From positions 1-27,122 of IMG/VR virus record IMGVR_UViG_3300032883_000119: 27,122 bases of DNA; one strand, written 5' to 3'. The stretch is from a virus. The position numbers and the translations under genes are program-made. The notes below the pieces were generated by a model. It was given only the letters and a program-made list of their open reading frames with translations. It was not told where the DNA came from and ran no database searches. This document shows positions 13,761 through 26,213 of this stretch, piece after piece; the first letter of the stretch is position 1, and every line of letters starts with the position of its first letter.

Positions 13761-13789
13761 ATTAAAAACTCGTTTTCCAGCAAAGTCAA
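13761..13789 (-). promoter_or_regulatory. Predicted sigma70-type promoter for the capsid/tail genes
   Basis: On the minus strand, TTGACT (13789-13784) and TTTAAT (13766-13761) are separated by 17 bp; each hexamer matches consensus in five of six positions. Initiation would fall near 13754, about 40 bp before the first head gene. It lies downstream of the second mini-gene, so it would supply head and tail transcription independently of readthrough from the portal side. Confidence 0.55.
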
Positions 13790-13822
13790 ATAATCTTGGC
13801 GCTGACGGACGCCGAGGCCGAT

Positions 13823-13864
13823 TTACCGGCGGGATTTCCGCTTGGCGCGATGCGATTTACGCAT
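13823..13864 (-). CDS. Mini-gene: 13-residue Arg/Lys-rich peptide (distal copy)
   Basis: ATG to TAA encodes MRKSHRAKRKSRR. GGGAG lies six bases before the ATG, closely matching the ribosome sites of the capsid genes. Eight of 13 residues are Arg or Lys and one is His, so the peptide is strongly nucleic-acid-binding in character. It starts about 20 bp after the terminator U-tract and shares length and style with the mini-gene at 13938-13979. It could be a packaged DNA-neutralising peptide, a translated leader, or chance. The matched pair with good ribosome sites makes chance less likely. Confidence 0.45.
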   Translation of the reverse strand: MRKSHRAKRKSRR

Positions 13865-13885
13865 GGTGTTCTCCCGTTACTTTGC

Positions 13886-13916
13886 AAAAAAAGGCGGGGC
13901 GGTGACGGCCACCCCG
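13886..13916 (-). terminator. Intrinsic terminator between the two mini-genes
   Basis: In the minus-strand transcript a GC stem (13916-13909 with 13902-13895; eight pairs including one G-U) has a six-base loop. CC and seven U follow (13892-13886). This is a good rho-independent terminator for transcripts arriving from the portal side. Confidence 0.6.
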
Positions 13917-13936
13917 GAGCCGGAATGATCCGGGGT
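13911..13936 (-). promoter_or_regulatory. Alternative (antiterminator-like) hairpin overlapping the terminator
   Basis: ACCCCGG (13936-13930 in the transcript) can pair perfectly with CCGGGGT (13917-13911). The latter is also the 5' arm of the terminator stem, so the two hairpins exclude each other. A small nested CCGGA-ATGA-TCCGG stem is also possible. The upstream arm starts two bases after the stop codon of the 13-residue mini-gene, so a terminating ribosome would cover it. The arrangement resembles a translated-leader attenuator; regulation is inferred. Confidence 0.4.
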
Positions 13937-13937
13937 A

Positions 13938-13979
13938 TTACTTCTTGCCGCGTTTAACGCGACGGCCACGACGTGCCAT
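13938..13979 (-). CDS. Mini-gene: 13-residue Arg/Lys-rich peptide (proximal copy)
   Basis: ATG to TAA encodes MARRGRRVKRGKK: five Arg and three Lys out of 13. AAGGAG lies seven bases before the ATG, the best ribosome site of the region. The gene sits in the gap between the portal and head genes and its stop abuts the antiterminator hairpin. Two readings are possible: a leader peptide whose translation sets the choice of hairpin, or a real basic peptide made with the head proteins. The phiX174 J protein is a precedent for tiny basic DNA-condensing virion peptides, but no homology is claimed. Confidence 0.5.
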   Translation of the reverse strand: MARRGRRVKRGKK

Positions 13980-14060
13980 GTGAATCTCCTTATCGAAGCG
14001 GCCACGTTTTCTAGGGGAACGCAGCCATACCCCTCCTACTTCAATTTGCTTTCTACACCG

Positions 14061-15701
14061 TTATTTTACGGCTTGCAACTTTCCTTGATTTTGCTCTGCC
14101 GCCGCAGCGGACGCCGCCGCCTTTTTCTCATCGGCTTCGATCTTTTTCAGCTTCCGCAACAGCAAGTCTTTCATCGGCGGGTCGATCATGTCTAAGAACG
14201 ATTCGCGGTCGATTGCTTTTGCTTCCAACAGTTCGGCGGCCAGTTGCTTGTGATCCTCTACGAACAGCGGGCTGTTGCTGTGCGAGTCCACCTTCACAAC
14301 GCAATCGTTGGTGAATTGCACTGGAATAAACGGCACGTCATGGTCATCTCTCAGGTCGTTGGTATCGTGCTTCTGCATCACCTTCAAATACAGGGTTGCG
14401 ATTTTCTCCAACGAATCTTCGACTACGAGGGCGCGTTTCTTGATGCGCGCCGATGCCAGCCGAGCCAGTTCGGACGTTTGGCGACCGGAGCGCACACCGG
14501 CTTCGCCCTTGCCCTGCATGATGTTCTGCAATCCGCTGCGTTCCGAAAACATGGAGTCGATTTCGTGAATGACGGCGAACAAATCCGGCGGAATGTCTGG
14601 CTTGTGCCGTTCAACTTTCGCTTGCATGGAGTCAGTTTGCAACACTCCGCCGGCCTTGTTCAAGGCAAACGCCTTTTCGTCAACCAGCCCCATCCATCCG
14701 GTCAGCGAAGTTGGCGGGTCTACGTTGCGGTCGAGCAAATCTTTCAGTTGAATGACGCGCGTGTTGCGCCACTTCTGCAAGCCAATGAGGCCGGCGACTT
14801 CCGACATACCCCAAAAATACGAATACATCGGATTCGGGCAAATCTGAACGAATGGCAGTTCACCCTTCACAAAGAAATTCATGCGGTCGTAGACCGTGAC
14901 CGAATTTGCCGCGCGAGTGACAACGCGCCAATCTTTTTCTTTTGTATCCCAAATCCAAAGTTCCTGCATTTCAATCAAATCTTCTGACACTCGCGGCAGG
15001 TAATCAACCTGCGCGTTCAGCGGAATTTGCGCGTTGCCCTGCATCGTTGGTGTTGATGCCGACAAAATGATTCGATCAACCCCGCTTGGCCTTTCCTCTT
15101 GGCTGGTGCGCGGAAACGCATCGACCGAGTTCAGGATTTGATCTTTCTGCGGGTGGTTTACCAAATCAATTTCAAGCTGCGCTTTGGTCGTATAAAAGCT
15201 GTGTACCATCGCCTGTTGGCGGTCGAGGAATGGCACATCTTCGCGCAGCACACCGAACGATCCGGGGTCGATGATGAATGGCTCAATCGCTTGCAAGCCC
15301 TTTTCACTGGCCTTGACGATAATTTTGAAGATCATCGTGTTGTAGACCAGCGACCACGTTAAGCCCTGACCAAACGTGGCGTCGCCGTTGGACATCAACC
15401 ACGCATCATTGACGGCTTTATTCACCGACTGTATTCTGGCGAATTCATGTTCTGCAATGTGCGGGCCGATGTGCGTTGAAAAGCGCGTCGTTTCCGATGC
15501 GAACAGAAACGAAGTCAGCATGTCGATGTGCGGAAAAATCTTGTTGTAAGGCGTTTCCGCTTCGTCAGAGCCGCAGCCGAACAGGAAATAGTGCCGCATC
15601 GTTGAATAGTCGATGCGTCGGTCATCCTGCGACTGCGTGCATTTTCTGATTATTTCCTCGTAAAATTGGTCGCGGTCGGCAAGATTGGTTGGAATGTCCA
15701 C
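14061..15701 (-). CDS. Portal protein
   Basis: 546 residues from a GTG with GAGG seven bases before it. Size, mixed alpha/beta composition and location downstream of terL and upstream of the head genes fit the dodecameric portal of short-tailed phages. That ring sits at one capsid vertex, is the docking site for terminase, and later serves as the DNA exit channel. N-terminal segments (YSTMRHYFLFGCGSDEAETP, then NKIFPHIDMLTSFLFASE) resemble portal wing/stem regions. A long helix (SLEKIATLYLKVMQK) and an Ala/Lys-rich crown-like tail (KKIEADEKKAAASAAAAEQN) occupy the C-terminus. No catalytic residues are expected. Confidence 0.85.
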   Translation of the reverse strand: MDIPTNLADRDQFYEEIIRKCTQSQDDRRIDYSTMRHYFLFGCGSDEAETPYNKIFPHIDMLTSFLFASETTRFSTHIGPHIAEHEFARIQSVNKAVNDAWLMSNGDATFGQGLTWSLVYNTMIFKIIVKASEKGLQAIEPFIIDPGSFGVLREDVPFLDRQQAMVHSFYTTKAQLEIDLVNHPQKDQILNSVDAFPRTSQEERPSGVDRIILSASTPTMQGNAQIPLNAQVDYLPRVSEDLIEMQELWIWDTKEKDWRVVTRAANSVTVYDRMNFFVKGELPFVQICPNPMYSYFWGMSEVAGLIGLQKWRNTRVIQLKDLLDRNVDPPTSLTGWMGLVDEKAFALNKAGGVLQTDSMQAKVERHKPDIPPDLFAVIHEIDSMFSERSGLQNIMQGKGEAGVRSGRQTSELARLASARIKKRALVVEDSLEKIATLYLKVMQKHDTNDLRDDHDVPFIPVQFTNDCVVKVDSHSNSPLFVEDHKQLAAELLEAKAIDRESFLDMIDPPMKDLLLRKLKKIEADEKKAAASAAAAEQNQGKLQAVK

Positions 15702-22703: not shown

Positions 22704-23771
22704 ATGGAAACCGTCAGCCAAGTGAAACCGATTGACATCACGCCGCGCCAAATGGCGGCCGATGTGCAGCTTGCCATACGCGACAACGTACCCCGTTTTT
22801 ATTGGGGAAATCCGGGATTAGGTAAAACGTCGATTGTCCGCACGGAAGTGCAGCGCGCCTTGTGGCAGTACTGCGATTTTCGCGCCATGATCCGCGATTT
22901 GCCCGATTTGCAAGGCTATCCCATTATCAGCGACATGCGCGCCGGCGAACCGTGCCCGATGACGGCGGCGCCCGGCTTGCCGTCGCCGGATAGCCCGGAA
23001 CAATGGGCAATCGTTTTTGAAGAAATGAACGGCGCGAGCCGGATGATGCAAGGCGCCCTTTATGGCATGGTTTTAGAGCGTAACGGGCTGCCGAAAATCA
23101 ACCGCGTTTTTGCGACCGGAAACCCGGCGAACGCGCGCGGCGTCAACAATGAAATGCCGGCGCCGCTGAAAAGCCGCTTTCGTCATTTCAATCTGGTACT
23201 GTGCCCGGATGAAACGCTGGCGTACGCGCAAGCGGCCGGCTGGCATCCGTACGTTACGGCGTACCACACGCTGACCGGCGGTAAGGAATGGTCAAGCTTT
23301 GACGCCAAATCGCCCGAGGAAACGTACGCTTGCCCGCGTTCATGGGAAGATGTCAGCCGCACCCTGAACGCCGGCGGAATTCCGGCCAATTTGCTCACGC
23401 CGACGATGGCCGGCAGCTTGGGTTACGGTATCGGCCAAAAATTCGCGGCCTTTTGCCGGTTGTTTACGGAATTGGCACCGACACTTGACGCGATGCGCGC
23501 CGACCCGGCCGGCTGCGCCATTCCGGCCGACGCGGCCGCGCAATGGTTTTTGTCGGCGACGATTGCCGCGAATAAGGCGGAAGCGGGCGCAAATCCGGCC
23601 GGCTTCGCCGCTTGGGCAATTCCTTTTCTTTGCCGGCTGCCGGATGAATTATGCGTGTTTGCGATGAACGCAGCGACCCGCCACACGCCGCAGCTTGGGC
23701 GTACCCCGGCCTTTGTCAAATCGTTTGCGACTAATGCCCGTTACGCGGCGCTGGCGCAATTCTGCAAATAG
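22704..23771 (+). CDS. MoxR-type AAA+ ATPase
   Basis: 355 residues; ATG with AGGAG ten bases upstream. ATPase of the MoxR/chelatase-like clade, which remodels or loads metal on partner proteins together with von Willebrand A proteins. Motifs: Walker A GNPGLGKT (35-42), Walker B VFEEMN (Glu106-Glu107), sensor 1 ATGNP (Asn140), and an arginine-finger region PLKSRF (Arg158). The family's usual DE is EE here. The C-terminal ~150 residues form the helical lid (PRSWEDVSRTLNAGG). Phages sometimes carry such genes labelled CobS-like by annotation. It leads the operon with a helical partner and a VWA protein. Confidence 0.88.
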   Translation: METVSQVKPIDITPRQMAADVQLAIRDNVPRFYWGNPGLGKTSIVRTEVQRALWQYCDFRAMIRDLPDLQGYPIISDMRAGEPCPMTAAPGLPSPDSPEQWAIVFEEMNGASRMMQGALYGMVLERNGLPKINRVFATGNPANARGVNNEMPAPLKSRFRHFNLVLCPDETLAYAQAAGWHPYVTAYHTLTGGKEWSSFDAKSPEETYACPRSWEDVSRTLNAGGIPANLLTPTMAGSLGYGIGQKFAAFCRLFTELAPTLDAMRADPAGCAIPADAAAQWFLSATIAANKAEAGANPAGFAAWAIPFLCRLPDELCVFAMNAATRHTPQLGRTPAFVKSFATNARYAALAQFCK

Positions 23772-24804: not shown

Positions 24805-24815
24805 GAGTGGCCGAC

Positions 24816-26213
24816 ATGGTGAACGCTAAAACGATGACCGCAGCGCCGGCTTTCCGTATTTCGGCCGCGCGGCTGCGCCTGATGGGCGACAAGTCATGCG
24901 GGTTATACGCTGAAATTGGTTACGCGCTGGCGCATGTCGCCACCGACGCCGTGGCAACGCTGGCGACCGACGGCAAAAGCTTGTTGTATAACCCGGCCTT
25001 TGTCGCGCAGTTATCCGATGCCGACCTTGAAACCGCGCTTTTGCATGAATACGTGCACGTTGCGCTTTTGCACCCGGTACGATTCAGCCCGGAAACGCAA
25101 GAAAAGCGGCTCGCTAACGTGGCAATGGATTACGCCGACAATTTGCACGTCGCGGCTTGCGGTCGGACTATTCCCGGTGACTGGTACTATGACGTGAAAT
25201 TCGACGGCATGGCATGGGAAGCGATTTATACATTGCTGAAAAACGAACAACCGCCGCAACCGCCGCAGCCGCAGCCGCAGCCCGACGCCGGAAACGACGG
25301 CCAGCCGCAGCCGGGCGAAAATGGCGCCGACGGCCAAAACGGCGAAAATGGCGCCGACGGCCAGCCGGCCGACGCGCCAGAAAGCGATTTAAGCGATTCA
25401 ACGGCGGCCGGCGATACCACGGCACCCGGCAAGCCGGGCGCTGGCGACGGCGCCGGCAAAGCGGCCGCCGCAGCCGGCGAACCGACGGCCGACCAGACCG
25501 CCAAACCGGCGCCCGGAAAACCCGGCGCCCGTAACGACGACGTGCAGCCGTACCCGGCCGCCAATCAAGCCGAACGCGACATCGCAGCCGCGCAGCTATC
25601 CGACCAGATTATGCGGATTGCCCAAGCGCAACAAATGGCCGGGCACGGGTCGGCCGGGCTGACGCGGTACATGAAAGACGCGACAACGCCGCGCGACCCG
25701 GATTTATATCAAGCGCTGGCGCAGCTATTGCAACGCGCGGCCGACGAACATACATGGCGCAAACCGAATTGGCGCCTTTCGGCGGTCGGCCTTTTTCCCG
25801 GCCTTGATGGCGACGAATTGCCGCCGCTTGTCGTCGTCGTAGATACGTCGTCAAGCCTTTGCGATGAATCACAAGCGGCGTTTGCCGACAAGATCAAGCG
25901 CGCCGTGGCAGACTTCCGGCCGCGCAGCGTGACTATAATTTCGGCCGATGACCGCGTACACAGCGCCGAAACATACGCGCCCGACGATTTGCCAGAATTG
26001 AAATTCCACGGCGGAGGCGGAACTGACTTTCGCCCGGCCTTTGAATGGGTCGCCGACAACATGCCCGACGCGCCGGCGGCGCTGGTCTACCTGACAGACT
26101 TAGAAGGCCCGGCGCCGAAAATCGCGCCAGATTACCCGGTAATATGGGCCGCCGTGCCATCATCGTGCCCGCGCGCGCCGTCATTCGGGCAAATCGTTCC
26201 CTTGATAATTTGA
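24816..26213 (+). CDS. VWA-domain protein with N-terminal HExxH metallopeptidase-like domain
   Basis: 465 residues from ATG at 24816 with AGGAG eight bases upstream; a GTG nine bases earlier overlaps the ribosome site. Domain 1 (to ~145) carries HEYVH (77-81) in LLHEYVHVALLHP, a zinc-peptidase-type motif. A long disordered linker (~145-255) is Pro/Gln- and Gly/Asp/Asn-rich with a duplicated GENGADGQ unit. Domain 2 is a von Willebrand A fold with intact MIDAS: DTSSS (Asp343, Ser345, Ser347), Thr403 in GGGGTDF, and Asp428 in YLTDLEG. This matches the DUF2201 layout. It is the expected effector of the MoxR ATPase. Whether it cleaves protein is unknown. Confidence 0.85.
   Translation: MVNAKTMTAAPAFRISAARLRLMGDKSCGLYAEIGYALAHVATDAVATLATDGKSLLYNPAFVAQLSDADLETALLHEYVHVALLHPVRFSPETQEKRLANVAMDYADNLHVAACGRTIPGDWYYDVKFDGMAWEAIYTLLKNEQPPQPPQPQPQPDAGNDGQPQPGENGADGQNGENGADGQPADAPESDLSDSTAAGDTTAPGKPGAGDGAGKAAAAAGEPTADQTAKPAPGKPGARNDDVQPYPAANQAERDIAAAQLSDQIMRIAQAQQMAGHGSAGLTRYMKDATTPRDPDLYQALAQLLQRAADEHTWRKPNWRLSAVGLFPGLDGDELPPLVVVVDTSSSLCDESQAAFADKIKRAVADFRPRSVTIISADDRVHSAETYAPDDLPELKFHGGGGTDFRPAFEWVADNMPDAPAALVYLTDLEGPAPKIAPDYPVIWAAVPSSCPRAPSFGQIVPLII
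25314..25363 (+). repeat. 27-bp tandem duplication in the VWA-protein linker
   Basis: A 23-base identical block starting GGCGAAAATGGCGCCGACGG begins at 25314 and again at 25341, in frame, encoding GENGADGQN and GENGADGQP. It lies inside the Pro/Gln/Gly linker and probably arose by slippage; linker length may vary between relatives. Confidence 0.75.

Follow-up and report, generated by a model that had tools for sequence, protein, structure and literature searches.

What do two open reading frames (ORFs) of only 13 codons each, both dominated by Arg and Lys, contribute to a tailed phage that carries them directly behind its portal gene? The question is raised by the IMG/VR virus record IMGVR_UViG_3300032883_000119, analysed here as a window of 27,122 bases (all positions refer to this whole stretch). 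On the minus strand, a gap of 347 nt between the portal gene (15701-14061) and a gene for a 207-residue protein (13713-13090) houses both frames. Mini-gene A (13938-13979) encodes MARRGRRVKRGKK and follows the Shine-Dalgarno (SD) sequence AAGGAG (13986-13991), placed 6 nt before its ATG, and mini-gene B (13823-13864) encodes MRKSHRAKRKSRR, its ATG lying 6 nt behind the SD sequence GGGAG (13871-13875). Each peptide has 13 residues, of which 8 are Arg or Lys, and each frame stops at TAA, exactly as an initial annotation of this DNA had described two basic frames of equal length with ribosome sites. Here we argue that these are genuine genes of a group of tailed phages that is widespread and uncultured, that a conserved RNA pseudoknot stands ahead of the first of them, and, tentatively, that their products neutralise phage DNA.

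The two frames were the sole matches when both strands of the 27-kb window were scanned for frames of 8-30 residues with at least 45% Lys plus Arg and an SD-like site. An initial portal search had returned four distinct relatives, each with two or three basic mini-ORFs past the portal, encoding either MARRARRAKRASKK and MRKSYRAKRKTRR, or MARRSRRAKRASKK / MARRARRAKRASKK and MARKHMRAKRKSKR, and a relative at 47% portal identity encodes MYKSVKRSRRGKRR, MAKRKGRKAKR and MRKGRKGRKARR. For a count blind to the mini-genes, we used 71 distinct loci picked by the portal gene alone; the portal profile, made of 19 sequences, matched at least 596 viral contig stretches, 80 of which were kept, together with 11 contigs from genome assemblies, the majority of them metagenome bins. 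Within 420 nt past the portal, at least one Arg/Lys-rich frame of 8-25 residues with an SD-like site was present in 67/71 loci and at least two in 52/71. Two further loci carry their mini-ORFs further off, at +793 (L143) and +600 (L216), another (L222) has a weaker basic frame, MYGKMPKPMKKPPMRDGKRS, and L226 is the sole one of the 71 with no such frame. The density of mini-ORFs across these relatives was 3.5 per kb in the gap versus 0.005 per kb elsewhere, an enrichment of about 650-fold, and shuffled gaps were expected to hold 0.02 mini-ORFs in total; together with the window scan, these values argue that the frames did not arise by chance. The comparison of the portal gap that the initial annotation had proposed was thus strongly positive, with frames and ribosome sites both conserved.

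Two of the relatives are GenBank phages, MW202825.1 and MW202753.1, both from Manatee Spring, where the mini-genes are unannotated and predicted minus-strand ORFs occupy the same region; their mini-ORFs encode MYKKHKRSRKTRR with MARKARKTRKGRK in one and MRKAYKKTRKTRR with MARAKRKGRKARK in the other. Variation on the arrangement occurs: L225 (42% portal identity) has four or more small basic ORFs in a row past the portal, MLNARRRKHKRK, MAHSARGGKPTGYRKKKRK and two longer ones, in a divergent version of the cluster in which the pseudoknot is not clear, and L027, L042, L161 and their relatives have a third mini-ORF, of the cysteine-containing MARKSKKGRKSCK type, ahead of families B and A. No comparable mini-ORF cluster was seen in SU10, whose portal belongs to the matching family, or in Mx8, BUCT555, MW202803 and Hydrogenobaculum phage 1, which have a distantly related major head protein or terminase.

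Across the group the peptides are 10-15 residues long and fall into two main families. Family A essentially follows M-A-R-K-x-R-K-G-R-K-x-R-K, a strict (x-R-K)n repeat in which the R and K positions are fixed, and family B follows M-[YR]-K-x-x-K-[RK]-x-R-K-[TS]-R-R, with R-K-x-R-R at the C terminus. The start codon is ATG in 111/115 mini-ORFs, and an SD sequence lies 6-8 nt upstream in most, so that both the site and its spacing are conserved. Between related pairs, nucleotide differences in the mini-ORFs are concentrated at codon position 3; the ratio of nonsynonymous to synonymous differences (pN/pS) was 0.31-0.36 in frame 0 versus 1.47-4.19 in the two other frames for family A, and 0.25-0.26 versus 1.58-4.01 for family B, values that are somewhat optimistic because the ORF sets were filtered on basic content. 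The count of retention in the portal-selected loci is independent of pN/pS. Among Arg codons, CGT and CGC make up 86% in the mini-ORFs versus 59% in the portal gene, a preference that points to efficient translation and not to stalling leaders. Judged by these substitution patterns, the mini-genes evolve as proteins, with purifying selection acting on the peptides; with synteny, ribosome sites and retention in 69-70 of the 71 portal-selected relatives, the earlier view of them as genuine mini-genes stands.

Directly upstream of the SD sequence of mini-gene A, at 14033-14000 on the minus strand, lies an H-type RNA pseudoknot, GGGGUAUGGCUGCGUUCCCCUAGAAAACGUGGCC, which the initial annotation had overlooked. 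Stem S1 pairs GGGG (14033-14030) with CCCC (14017-14014), with loop L1 being UAU, and stem S2, which also appears in the minimum free energy fold, pairs GGCUGCGUU (14026-14018) with AACGUGGCC (14008-14000), with loop L3 being UAGAA. A pattern search with the 5' part of the pseudoknot found at least 118 places; among the matches listed, a basic mini-ORF was close by in 111/118, these 111 lay between the portal gene and a homologue of gene g11756 wherever the contig has both, and the pattern occurred once per locus. Base pairs were counted on a gap-free set (A3) of 38 distinct sequences from which loop L3 had been removed, the MAFFT alignment (A2) having misplaced loop gaps. In this set 95.7% of paired cells were complementary versus 84.6% in shuffles (0/500), double changes numbered 39 versus 7.7, the covariation score was 0.294 versus 0.065, and sliding the strands lowered pairing to 36-58%. 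Because the 5' columns of the pattern-found set are partly fixed by the search pattern, a permutation test was run on other loci, namely 104 upstream regions picked by portal or peptide alone. S1 was fully paired in 92/104 (permuted maximum 48), S1 with stems other than xGGG in 31/35 (permuted maximum 11) and S2 in 94/104 (permuted maximum 79). Clear compensatory examples are GGUUUCUC/GAGAAACC in L148 and GGCUGAUU/AAUUGGCC in L221.

The association also holds in the opposite direction. When loci were sought by the peptide motif only, 91 new ones emerged, 91/91 of them from the same phage group, and a recognisable pseudoknot was present in nearly all, L304 being the clear exception. No such element was found in front of the B frames, which ties the pseudoknot to A, and by this covariation and co-occurrence the element is conserved ahead of A and near one-to-one with the first peptide. 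In some relatives, such as L001 (6672) and L007 (1043), an ATG within the pseudoknot opens a frame that runs on without a stop into mini-gene A (MAAFPLKRGRFVKEID-MARR...); in the window, the frame from the pseudoknot-internal ATG ends after MAAFP (14028-14011).

Searches of Rfam at its gathering threshold gave no match. In a permissive search, RF03012 (Mu-gpT-DE) scored 16.7 bits in the window versus a cut-off of 49, with no match listed in seven relatives. This family shares a late phage gene context, to go by its name, and a model ending in SD and AUG; the alignment consists essentially of CCCU, SD and AUG, and homology is unsupported. A search with the same family in host-like genomes and 299 genomes of the phylum gave two sub-threshold matches, neither followed by a basic mini-ORF, and the weak Rfam matches to Spot-42, SNORD and the like were dismissed as chance. 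For the longer basic variants, a PHROG search was negative.

The surroundings of the mini-genes are those of a head module, with terminase, portal and major head protein genes as neighbours. The upstream flank is the portal gene, which encodes 546 residues (PHROG portal, E = 9e-9; Pfam SU10_portal, E = 2.6e-11), and the gene for the large terminase subunit lies upstream. The initial annotation had placed the frames between portal and head genes, which is right on the portal side; the next gene, the one for 207 residues, has no assigned function and is no recognised head gene, and a PHROG search of the window put the major head protein at 10943-9936. This 207-residue gene is restricted to the window's own subgroup; the gene downstream of the mini-frames differs between subgroups, being either the 207-residue gene or the g11756 homologue, and the mini-frames are kept in both. 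Elsewhere in the window, the product of 24807-26213 (plus strand) has DUF2201 metallopeptidase-like and VWA-like domains in Pfam, and that of 22704-23771 (plus strand), without a Pfam match, looks ATPase-like by eye and is a candidate partner; such an ATPase-VWA pair seems unusual in a phage.

The frames do lie in the gap that they were said to fill, which they share with the pseudoknot and a terminator-like hairpin. The latter (13885-13916, minus strand, as for all window features of this paragraph) follows mini-gene A with a stem of 8 bp, a loop of 6 nt and then U7, and has equivalents in L142 and L140, where one follows the single mini-gene of each. A second hairpin, with loop UCCGUCA, lies past mini-gene B (13798-13813), and similar hairpins occur in relatives. 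A promoter scan of the window called no promoter, and two candidates were read from the sequence only: TTGCAA-17-TAGAAA at the end of the portal gene (14050-14078), which is weak (8/12, below the scan threshold), and TTGACT-17-TTTAAT for the 207-residue gene (13761-13789), conserved in L001, L003 and L007. In L142 a promoter-like TTGACA-18-TAAAGT stands just ahead of the pseudoknot, in the same place as the window's portal-end candidate. As consensus matches, these promoters and terminators are candidates and no proof. The SD region of the 207-residue gene, TGACGGAG (13728-13721), is complementary to CCGTCA in the loops near 13908 and 13808, and an interaction of this SD with the hairpins past A and B is possible; CCGTCA is common in the window.

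Taken together, the best explanation, to which we give a rough probability of 45%, is that these are late head-module mini-genes, efficiently translated, whose polycationic products neutralise or condense phage DNA, with the pseudoknot controlling translation of the first. Both would be translated late, as part of the head-assembly module, and from their charge and composition the products of 10-15 residues are expected to bind nucleic acid, most likely acting on phage DNA during or after its packaging in the manner of the J peptide. Such a role would fit charge, composition and position; packaging itself we infer from the place in the head module. The pseudoknot, 5' of the ribosome-binding site, would control the first mini-gene, plausibly through an autogenous loop in which free excess peptide binds the pseudoknot RNA and its own synthesis stops, as for gp32 of T4. 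A bolder form of this idea, that a large group of tailed double-stranded DNA phages packages protamine-like peptides of 10-15 residues and that the surplus, once the DNA is saturated, binds its own pseudoknot and halts translation, we regard as doubtful.

Each part has a precedent. In microviruses, the Arg-Lys-rich J/VP8 peptide lies inside the capsid, is important for packaging and has a C-terminal hydrophobic or aromatic residue buried in the coat protein (PMC11281519). Shared with J of phiX174 and VP8 of SpV4 are the tiny size, the Arg/Lys-rich composition, the viral origin and the capsid module. However, the mini-peptides have 10-15 residues versus 38 in SpV4 VP8, and no aromatic C terminus was found among main-family peptides, A mostly ending in ...RK and B in ...RR. 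Their phages have a terminase, an SU10-type portal and a tailed-phage major head protein in place of a microvirus genome and coat protein, and, unlike J/VP8, they have two or three different copies and an upstream pseudoknot. As there is neither an aromatic anchor nor a microvirus capsid, we consider the mini-peptides putatively J/VP8-like in action and not members of that family. In T4 gene 32, a pseudoknot of ~28 nt lies 5' of the SD and is required for autogenous repression (PMC535899). Both systems thus have an H-type pseudoknot of ~30 nt immediately 5' of the SD and a product whose nucleic-acid binding would be independent of sequence, whereas the mini-gene element has other stems and loops and no UUAAA repeats, and its product is a 13-residue peptide of predicted binding rather than a cooperative single-strand-binding protein. 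The internal head proteins of T4 are packed with DNA inside a tailed-phage head (PMC7697877), but IPI-IPIII are far larger, and their targeting uses ~10 N-terminal residues that are cleaved off and that the putatively packaged mini-peptides do not have. Packaging peptides that are tiny and basic are therefore known, as are pseudoknot operators; we found no record of this combination, at this size and in this phage group, nor any description of such peptides or pseudoknot, in literature coverage that excluded subscription journals and preprints.

Several observations weigh against DNA-neutralising peptides. The fixed order of R then K suggests more than bulk charge, and the presence of the pseudoknot in front of A only would make any translational control specific to that family. 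The mini-genes are not universal in the group, L226 having none and L222 a weaker frame. Basic content also played a part in choosing the ORF sets behind the family patterns and pN/pS, and pN/pS is somewhat lowered by this. The phages are known here from sequence alone, and to our knowledge well-studied tailed phages package their DNA without such peptides.

Four other explanations were considered, here in falling order of belief. The first, unlikely in our view, is that the peptides are not packaged and mainly regulate by binding RNA of phage or host, in the way of lambda N and other arginine-rich motifs, the pseudoknot being one of their targets. Structured RNA can be bound by Arg/Lys-rich peptides of such length, an RNA of this kind adjoins the first mini-gene of almost all members, and the R and K positions are fixed and not interchangeable; however, the two or three distinct copies that a phage carries, with their translation-preferred codons, suggest a bulk product, and the mini-genes sit in the head module. 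Their fixed place in that module, together with the absence of a signal sequence or hydrophobic face from the main-family peptide sequences, makes it quite improbable that they are host-directed effectors acting on ribosomes, nucleoid or membranes, although their strong cationic character and good translation signals would suit that role. We give slightly less credence still to the view that the RNA itself is what functions, in packaging or regulation, and that the frames only serve this small RNA. The use of a packaging RNA by phi29, the strong conservation of pseudoknot and 3' hairpins, and the short unit of L142 bracketed by promoter-like and terminator-like sites favour it, but differences are concentrated at third codon positions with constraint in frame 0 only, and many members have the pseudoknot within the cluster, immediately before the SD of A. 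Least credible are the translated leaders that the initial annotation had offered as an option, in which ribosome transit over Arg/Lys codons governs the next gene by attenuation or stalling: the succession of short frames, hairpins and next gene is as expected, but in place of rare or regulatory codons suited to a gene under such control we found mostly the frequent CGT and CGC, two or three tandem copies in most relatives, frames that stay while the downstream gene differs between subgroups, and, in several members, terminator-like hairpins that part mini-gene A from what follows.

Gene finders and profile libraries have length limits that genes of 10-15 codons do not reach, and codon-level selection combined with synteny over hundreds of contigs makes this a clean case of real genes that are systematically missed. 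The finding raises a testable question, namely whether charge-neutralising peptides help tailed phages to package double-stranded DNA, and it provides a new covarying pseudoknot that is open to reporter testing at once. If the peptides are indeed packaged and self-titrating, their genes would count with the shortest known that are dedicated to virion structure, and an RNA operator would gauge the supply of its own product.
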